DNA of 64,000 bases from Sphaerochaeta associata (GTDB lineage Bacteria > Spirochaetota > Spirochaetia > Sphaerochaetales > Sphaerochaetaceae), in the NCBI RefSeq assembly GCF_022869165.1, contig NZ_CP094929.1, positions 2,294,001-2,358,000 of the forward strand. The letters are read 5' to 3'. Of this stretch, positions 11,122 through 13,018 are shown piece by piece (positions within the stretch are counted from its first letter, which is position 1; each line of letters starts with the position of its first letter). The position numbers and the translations under genes are program-made. The notes under the pieces are model-generated. The model did not search any database. It saw only the letters and a list, made by a program, of their open reading frames with translations, and was not told the DNA's origin.

Positions 11122-11151
11122 ATAGTAGCATTACAAAATTAAGCGAATCAA
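11122..11151 (-). promoter_or_regulatory. Promoter of the cysteine-cluster gene
   Basis: On the minus strand TTGATT, an 18-nt spacer and TACTAT, located over the last codons of corA. Confidence 0.5.
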
Positions 11152-12173
11152 TCGGGCAAAGACCGCTTTTTTCGTTTTTTTCTCCTAATTTCCTTGCCTG
11201 TCTCCCTCGCACCAAGCAAGGAGCGCTGGACCAATCGTGCATTACGTCGGTCGGAAAGCATCCAGCCGCCTATCAAGGCGCTCACTCCACAAAAGGAGAG
11301 GATGCCGATCCAGGCAAATGGATTGGTCATAAAAGGCAAATCAACATTCATTCCGTAGAATCCGGTTACGAACGTCGGGAACATCAAGCTGATGGAGATA
11401 ATGGTCAGCCGTTTCATGATTACGTTCATGTTATTGCTGATGACCGAAGCAAATGCATCCATCGTTCCTGTGAGGATTGATGAGTAGATGTTCGCCATCT
11501 CGATGGCCTGCTTGTTATCGGTGATTACGTCGTCCAGGAAGTCACGCTCCTCTTCGCCGGCAAGCTTGAAGTAGGGGGTTCGCTGCAGGCGTTCGAGCAG
11601 GGCCTCGTTGGTGGTAAGGCTGGTTGAGAAGTAGACCAAGGACTTCTGGATCTGCAGCAGCTGAATCAGTTCATAATTCATGATGCTCTTCTGAAGCTGC
11701 TCCTCCACCTGGCTCTTCTGGCGGTTGATATACTTGAGCAGGCGGATGTAGACCATCACCGCCCGGCCAAGGATGCTGATCACAAATCCTTCCATTGTCT
11801 GTACAGGATACTGGCGGTAACGGTTCTTCGCAAAATCCTCAAGTACGATGCTATCGCTTTGGCAGATGGTGATAACGGTATCGCGGACCAGGACAATTCC
11901 CAAAGGAACGGCATACTGGTTGATTCCCTTGCAATCATCGGCCATGGCGGGCAGACGCACGATGAGAGCAACGTAATCGTCCTCTTTCTCAATGCGCGCC
12001 TGTTCGTCCTGGTCCATGATATCTGCAAGCAATTCACTGGAAATCGAATACTGCTCCTCAAGCTGGGAGATATCGTCACGGTTGATGTCGCGTGCATCAA
12101 CCCAAGTGTAGGGAGCCTCCTGGATGGGATCTCCTGGATTCAGGCTCATCAGATTCTTTCTGATTGTGATCAT
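11148..12173 (-). CDS. corA: CorA family magnesium transporter
   Basis: A 341-residue magnesium or cobalt channel. A large acidic and helical cytoplasmic domain is followed by two C-terminal membrane helices. The signature GFYGMNVDLPF lies in the loop after the first helix (about residue 283), and YGMN is the selectivity motif. The start is ATG with a very good GGAGGAAGT ribosome site. Upstream is an unusual leader with a small ORF and structures able to hide that site, so expression may be controlled at translation. Confidence 0.95.
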   Translation of the reverse strand: MITIRKNLMSLNPGDPIQEAPYTWVDARDINRDDISQLEEQYSISSELLADIMDQDEQARIEKEDDYVALIVRLPAMADDCKGINQYAVPLGIVLVRDTVITICQSDSIVLEDFAKNRYRQYPVQTMEGFVISILGRAVMVYIRLLKYINRQKSQVEEQLQKSIMNYELIQLLQIQKSLVYFSTSLTTNEALLERLQRTPYFKLAGEEERDFLDDVITDNKQAIEMANIYSSILTGTMDAFASVISNNMNVIMKRLTIISISLMFPTFVTGFYGMNVDLPFMTNPFAWIGILSFCGVSALIGGWMLSDRRNARLVQRSLLGARETGKEIRRKKRKKRSLPD

Positions 12174-12258
12174 ACTTCCTCCGTGGATGGTTGGGGCGTT
12201 CTCCCGATTCCACAGGGGATGGACCTGGTAGGTTTAGCAGCAGTACCAGGAGGACGCC
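12174..12258 (-). promoter_or_regulatory. Structured leader of corA
   Basis: In the minus-strand RNA, a 7-bp stem CCUGGUA/UACCAGG (12244-12250 with 12224-12230) has the stop codon of the leader ORF in its loop. An outer stem pairs GGCGU and CUCC (12249-12258) with GGAG and ACGCC (12195-12204), one mismatch. UCCUCC at 12249-12254 could instead pair with the corA Shine-Dalgarno GGAGGA at 12177-12182. These exclusive pairings suggest that translation of the leader ORF decides access to corA. Confidence 0.5.
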
Positions 12259-12314
12259 ATAAGCGGGTTTCTAGGCAGGGGTGTTATACTACCACCGTCG
12301 TCTAACGTAGACAT
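12234..12314 (-). CDS. Leader peptide upstream of corA (26 aa)
   Basis: ATG preceded by AAGGAGGAGCCA, a strong ribosome site, then 26 codons and TAA, 60 nt before corA. The peptide begins MSTLDDGGS, contains TPLPRNPL in the middle and ends SSWYCC. It has three prolines in eight residues. From memory, the Salmonella MgtL leader peptide, which senses magnesium upstream of mgtA, also contains TPLPR; the match is short and I could not check it. A 13-bp palindrome (GTCTA-ACG-TAGAC, 12300-12312) lies within codons 2-6. The role as a regulatory leader is inferred. Confidence 0.55.
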   Translation of the reverse strand: MSTLDDGGSITPLPRNPLMASSWYCC

Positions 12315-12466
12315 TGGCTCCTCCTTGCATGTGATGGCTTGCCTGTCTGGCGAGCACCGCACTCAGTCTACCATAGACCTAGAAGAAGAATAAAGGGGGC
12401 TTGGAAGAAAAAACGCCCTTTTCCAAATCATTCAAACCTCCTATACTCGGCGATAGGAGGAAGATA

Positions 12467-13018
12467 ATGGTTAGTAGAGATGAAGCTGAAAAACTGTTGC
12501 GTAAGTATAATCCCAACGAGGCGTTGGTTTACCACGCATTCTGTGTTGAACAGACCATGGCTCGTTTCGCAACCGAGTACGGCCACGATGCCGAGTATTG
12601 GGCCCTCGTTGGCTTGTTGCACGACATCGACTGGGGGATGTTTCCCGAAGAGCACTGCAAGAAAGCCCCCGAGCTGTTAAAGGAAATCGACGTGGACGAT
12701 GCATTCATCCATGCTGTCTGCAGTCATGGATGGGGACTGTGCAGTGACATTGAGCCCCGGCTATTCATGGAGAAGGTCCTCTACACCATTGATGAACTGA
12801 CCGGCCTCGTATACGCAACAGCGCTCATGAGGCCTGAGCGGATGCAGGGCATGAGCGTAAAGTCGGTCAAGAAGAAATGGTCTTCCAAAGGCTTTGCAGC
12901 CGGGGTGAATCGTGATGTAATCGCCCAAGGCGCCCAAATGCTCGATATACCGTTGGAACACATCATCACCCTCACCATCGAGGCCATGGAGAAAGCAAGC
13001 GACAAAATCGGTCTTTAG
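12467..13018 (+). CDS. HD domain protein
   Basis: A 183-residue protein of the HD metal-dependent phosphohydrolase superfamily. The paired HD is in LLHDIDWG at about residues 47-54, with an upstream histidine in YHAFCVEQ and later HAVCSHGW. The start is ATG with GGAGGAAGATA upstream and TATACT about 20 nt further. The substrate (nucleotide or other phosphoester) is unknown. It ends convergently with a 4-nt overlap on the next gene. Confidence 0.8.
   Translation: MVSRDEAEKLLRKYNPNEALVYHAFCVEQTMARFATEYGHDAEYWALVGLLHDIDWGMFPEEHCKKAPELLKEIDVDDAFIHAVCSHGWGLCSDIEPRLFMEKVLYTIDELTGLVYATALMRPERMQGMSVKSVKKKWSSKGFAAGVNRDVIAQGAQMLDIPLEHIITLTIEAMEKASDKIGL

Follow-up and report, generated by a model that had tools for sequence, protein, structure and literature searches.

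How Mg2+ can be sensed through unstable translation of a leader peptide is known from work on enteric bacteria. The corA genes are usually regarded as constitutive. In the mgtQ-mgtB system of Salmonella, Asp2 and Glu5 of the leader peptide destabilise the ribosome, and translation of MgtB is controlled by alternative stem-loops (1:2 together with 3:4, versus 2:3), of which 2:3 frees the ribosome-binding site (RBS) and 3:4 hides it (PMC8092293). In MgtL, an acidic-repeat motif near the start (EPDP) is reported to cause ribosomes to drop off at low Mg2+ (PMC11282234). The corA genes of E. coli and Salmonella, too, are known to be preceded by a leader ORF (corL), whose downstream mechanism is a different one (Rho), and in E. 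coli the translation of corL is inversely related to the expression of corA (PMC11552253).

The locus considered here lies in the genome of Sphaerochaeta associata, within a stretch of 64,000 nt to which I will refer as the window. The window encodes, on its minus strand, a short ORF followed 60 nt downstream by the start of corA. The features are listed in their order along that strand.

12318..12326, minus strand: leader Shine-Dalgarno (SD) sequence AAGGAGGAG, read from the sequence; may in addition provide the 5' side (segment 1) of a 1:2 helix formed with the 3' codons of the leader itself
12234..12314, minus strand: 26-codon leader ORF MSTLDDGGSITPLPRNPLMASSWYCC plus stop (ATG at 12314, TAA at 12236-12234), supported by family conservation and pN/pS
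12273..12302, minus strand: leader codons 5-14, DDGGSITPLP, an acidic pair and then PxP; presumed ribosome-destabilising motif, resembling EPDPTPLP of MgtL and the acidic-repeat motif (PMC11282234)
12249..12258, minus strand: 5' arm of helix H1 (segment 2) GGCGUCCUCC, inside the leader 3' codons; swap test
12254-12249, minus strand: TCCTCC stretch, read from the sequence
12224..12250, minus strand: 7-bp hairpin CCTGGTA/TACCAGG (arms 12250-12244 and 12230-12224) whose loop holds the stop codon; present in the sequence, unconserved, and not taken to be functional
12209..12218, minus strand: 5' arm of helix H2 CCCCUGUGGA; swap test
12195..12205, minus strand: 3' arm of H1 (segment 3) GGGAGAACGCC, located in the loop of H2; swap test
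12178..12187, minus strand: 3' arm of H2 (segment 4) UCCACGGAGG, including most of the corA SD; swap test
12177..12182, minus strand: corA SD GGAGGA, read from the sequence
11148..12173, minus strand: corA, 341 aa, CorA-family Mg2+ channel (PF01544, E 4.5e-56)

The strong leader ribosome site, the short ORF and the TPLPRNPL within it were described by the initial annotation, and all are present. That annotation also ascribed TPLPR to MgtL, correctly, as the E. coli MgtL sequence includes both EPDPTPLP and TPLPR. Among the 308 SD-preceded short ORFs on both strands of the window, the leader ORF alone matches the family motif. As a control for chance, 1.58 Mb of locus sequence containing 3382 SD-preceded short ORFs gave 75 fits to the family motif and 27 to MDxDP, nearly all of the inspected MDxDP fits being the Mg2+-transporter leaders themselves. 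The leader ORF is far beyond chance occurrence. An Rfam search of the window returned no match, hence none to the M-box (RF00380), and a scan of positions 12100-12480 found no terminator-like site (a hairpin with a U run, as in a trp-type attenuator); the promoter-like site that it did find lies on the opposite strand. Folded as a single sequence, the window does not stand out as especially stable (z -0.87).

The upstream regions of corA orthologues were gathered across the Sphaerochaetaceae, with relatives that include Sphaerochaeta halotolerans, and 79 distinct leader-corA regions remained for analysis after the removal of duplicates (a few more were read besides). The initial annotation had taken a lack of conservation upstream of corA in close relatives as an outcome that would speak against it, and this was not seen. 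By my tally, the leader is found in 94 of the 95 family genomes that have a corA orthologue, and in the single genome without it (L186) the corA gene is interrupted by a stop. The second corA-like gene of the S. associata genome (L002) has no leader upstream. The peptides fall into groups, MSxxDDGGSITPLPS/R (in the genus), MDEGGSINPLPR, MDDGSYPLP, VKRQSEEANPHPDSC, VRTTNDDSNPLSRR and others, and range from 14 to 31 aa in length. An acidic pair stands early in 78 of the 79 distinct leaders and PxP occurs in 66, leaving 13 without it. The conserved portion is confined to the first ~14 residues, the C-terminal half being variable in sequence. Of the TPLPR and WYCC for which the initial annotation suggested searching relatives, the former is not family-wide (other members have PLPS, PHPD or PLPE) and the latter is not conserved; the core of acidic pair and PLP is kept. 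Over codons 2-11 in the MDE clade, pN is 0.033 versus a pS of 0.385 (pN/pS 0.08). There is a family-wide leader peptide before corA, and purifying selection acts on it at the peptide level. The nucleotides CCTAG that close the PLP codons (window 12275-12271, and in relatives) are often kept even when the next residue switches between R and S.

Two helices recur across nearly every lineage, noticed by eye and then computed, with sequences that differ from lineage to lineage and with overlapping arms. In H1, the last codons of the leader, or the bases just past its stop, pair with the 5' arm or the loop of H2 (in the window, GGCGUcCUCC/GGGAGaACGCC, lower case marking mismatches). In H2, the ribosome site or start of corA pairs with bases that lie beyond the leader on its 3' side (in the window, CCcCUGUGGA/UCCACGGaGG, likewise). 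The pairings were assessed by a swap test, in which each 5' segment is set against its own partner and against GC- and length-matched partners from dissimilar sequences, a comparison that is independent of any single alignment. Native partners outperformed the swapped ones in H1 (mean z -1.79, with 92% of values below zero and p 9e-13) and in H2 (z -1.28, p 7e-10), control segments (the leader 5' codons and upstream flanks) gave z near zero, and 53 dissimilar representatives gave the same picture as the full set. The 1:2 helix, between the leader SD region and the leader 3' codons, is weak overall (z -0.55, p 0.004; z -0.86 in the genus), with support in four groups and none in the MDE group. 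Column-wise pair counts are modestly above those of shuffles in the MDE clade and show no excess over shuffles in the genus alignment (A1), in part because MAFFT shifts one subclade by a base. H1 and H2 coevolve, and since their arms overlap they are mutually exclusive alternatives.

The initial annotation had chosen other structures for the switch. The UCCUCC stretch, which it paired with the corA SD, is present, but the swap test gives that pairing a z of about 0, no better than foreign partners, and it was rejected. The hairpin around the stop codon is likewise present in the window; among relatives it is complete in L006, shorter in L003 and absent beyond the closest relatives, and was rejected as a switch on that account. 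The earlier proposal is thus partly supported: its core idea stands and its specific pairing does not.

Similar leaders occur beyond the family. Those before corA in other spirochaetes and in Clostridia often start with MDSDPGS, MDADPGS, MDADPK, MDPDPRP or MDETPGS. A gene-agnostic pattern (SD, spacer, M-D-x-D-P) applied to 291 Clostridia-class genomes gave 27 rows, versus 7 with the reversed pattern, and of the 21 short MDxDP ORFs among these rows 18 lie before CorA or MgtE (16 and 2, respectively) and three before neither, the downstream genes being identified by Pfam for a sample and by sequence for the remainder. In this outgroup set of other spirochaetes and Clostridia, the pairing of the intergenic segment with the RBS is again specific to native partners (z -1.34, 95% below zero, p 9.5e-6). 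MgtE genes with MDxDP-type leaders (MDSSDPGPGRQSFLRNAC, MESADPGPSRNAFLRKAF, MDTDPLSSLCLLAVRLSPEPVRRRA) are found in some Sphaerochaetaceae and Clostridia (L272, reverse complement 439; L277, 448; L316, from genome G033; L293; L285), and the first three of these are from the window's own family. Within that family, MgtE is found mostly in genomes without a leader-bearing corA. It was not found in the S. associata genome, whose leader-bearing corA may therefore be its main Mg2+ importer.

Some arrangements in these genomes differ from that of the window. In three Treponema-like loci (L218, L219 and L225) the leader crosses the corA start out of frame, a layout that would repress corA directly if the leader were translated through. 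At L260, an M-box (RF00380, 139.9 bits, 1089-1252) lies upstream of an MDADP leader and a clostridial corA, giving two Mg2+ devices in series. Two loci (L286 and L295) have long ORFs that start with MDADPLSIILL and MDPDPNGLEIAAQ, which from their sequence look like CNNM/CorC-type membrane proteins; here the main gene itself would carry the putative destabilising start. A raiA RNA (RF03072) adjoins clostridial corA leaders at L240 (845-1049, minus strand) and L261 (673-892, minus strand).

The segment layout 1-2-3-4 is the same as that of mgtQ-mgtB and the acidic-repeat motif is as in MgtL, and it is for these reasons that I propose a translational Mg2+ attenuator, working via translation of the leader peptide, with corA on at low Mg2+ (probability about 0.7). 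Initiation on the leader would be efficient. When Mg2+ is low, ribosomes would lose stability while reading the acidic pair and the PLP codons near its start and would leave the mRNA. The 3' codons of the leader, left free, would then pair as H1 with the stretch that follows the leader; with H1 in place, hairpin H2 could not take up the corA ribosome site, and corA would be translated. With sufficient Mg2+, the leader would be completed, the ribosome would cover the 5' arm of H1, and H2 would hide the corA ribosome site, so that corA would be repressed. I infer that the leader is translated in vivo, that ribosomes drop off it, that the response is to Mg2+ and has this sign, and that the output is translational rather than transcriptional. 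The initial annotation had Mg2+-dependent stalling on the ORF free the corA site; that the leader is a magnesium sensor is indeed most likely, but drop-off fits the known MgtL/MgtQ mechanism better than stalling.

The same leader and the same sensing of Mg2+ could be joined to a different output, Rho-dependent termination as in enteric mgtL and corL, in which translation exposes a Rho site and drop-off hides it. E. coli and Salmonella are known to control corA in this way (PMC11552253), and the S. associata genome encodes Rho. The coevolving H2, however, covers the corA RBS and so points to translation, and the distance from leader stop to corA start (20-67 nt across the leaders) leaves little space for the loading of Rho after the leader. 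I regard this output as unlikely.

A shade less likely again is translational coupling of the opposite sign, in which a ribosome finishing the leader would open the structure and aid initiation on corA, making the leader an activator. The short spacing from stop to start would suit coupling, and so would one result of equilibrium folding with the ribosome represented as a mask: in the MDE clade, a ribosome at the leader stop leaves the RBS slightly more open. Across groups, however, the change in RBS accessibility is inconsistent in direction, and the sign of the attenuator has therefore been taken from the topology, the cotranscriptional order and known precedents. Coupling would shut off a Mg2+ importer at low Mg2+. 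Moreover, the out-of-frame overlaps in Treponema-like genomes, which fit repression through complete translation of the leader, and the precedents of mgtQ and corL favour an inverse relation.

It is quite improbable that the acidic and proline codons sense some other signal, for example proline charging or the activity of EF-P or of an ABC-F protein (EttA). EttA does affect MgtL and ORFs with acidic starts (PMC11282234), and PxP is kept in most of the leaders. Against this, the best score to the EttA model in the S. associata genome is 383.5 bits, below the cut-off of 806.75, the acidic pair is better conserved than the proline, and the leaders are tied to both CorA and MgtE. That the leader is a small protein acting in trans (on the CorA protein, for example) and the hairpins ordinary RBS structure would account for the constraint on the N-terminal core at the peptide level but scarcely deserves credence, as only that core is kept while the C-terminal half and the length vary and RNA pairing there persists.

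If the attenuator reading is true, it provides a regulator for corA genes, and the same logic as in enteric bacteria operates in a distant phylum, with a different transporter family and an RBS-based output, fixed in a whole bacterial family. More broadly, leaders with acidic/proline starts (M-D-x-D-P, or DD/DE and then PLP) would seem, on balance, to be a widespread and largely unrecognised means of Mg2+ sensing, of which enteric MgtL, MgtQ and CorL are the studied cases. Spirochaetes and Clostridia would place such leaders upstream of the Mg2+ channel in use in each lineage, be it CorA or MgtE. The device would be either ancient or repeatedly evolved, the latter on the grounds that the sensor would be the ribosome. 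There would then be a simple sequence rule for spotting Mg2+-regulated genes, and the dozens of diverged destabilising peptides would form a natural series showing which residues matter. I found no report of spirochaete or clostridial corA or mgtE leaders in a literature search that covered few subscription papers or preprints.

The locus shares with mgtL/mgtQ-type systems a short ORF with a good ribosome site before a Mg2+ transporter gene, early acidic and proline codons and, as judged by the swap tests and the overlapping arms, alternative structures that span the ORF and the RBS, although mask folding showed no consistent switch. The M-box (RF00380) is like it in exerting cis-acting Mg2+ control of transporter genes but involves no leader peptide, the RNA itself binding Mg2+. 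As to corL, it too is a leader ORF directly upstream of an enteric corA and is regulated by Mg2+, but it works with Rho. In E. coli its position is that of ysgD (NC_000913.3, 4001218-4001274; L279, 1719-1775), whose peptide, (M)DTPSRYWLTILSSRINS, follows a UUG start and contains a single acidic residue and a single proline in its first part; its M-D-T-P-S-R resembles the MDETPGSRR and MDSDPGSKR of spirochaete leaders, a comparison made by eye between peptides too short for an alignment statistic. MgtL of E. coli and Salmonella, also before a Mg2+ importer, has an acidic/proline N-terminus and shares TPLPR with the leader in the window, but it precedes mgtA and acts by Rho-dependent termination, whereas the spirochaete leader precedes corA. 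With mgtQ-mgtB there is no sequence homology shown, and the two differ in that mgtQ encodes 8 aa and is intergenic, in an operon before a P-type ATPase, whereas the spirochaete leader encodes 26 aa with an acidic pair and PLP and stands in the 5' leader of corA. They are alike in having a short ORF, a strong SD, early acidic codons, an RBS hidden or freed by alternative stem-loops and a Mg2+ transporter downstream, and control at translation, known for mgtQ-mgtB, is what the sequence and the computed pairing suggest for the spirochaete leader as well.
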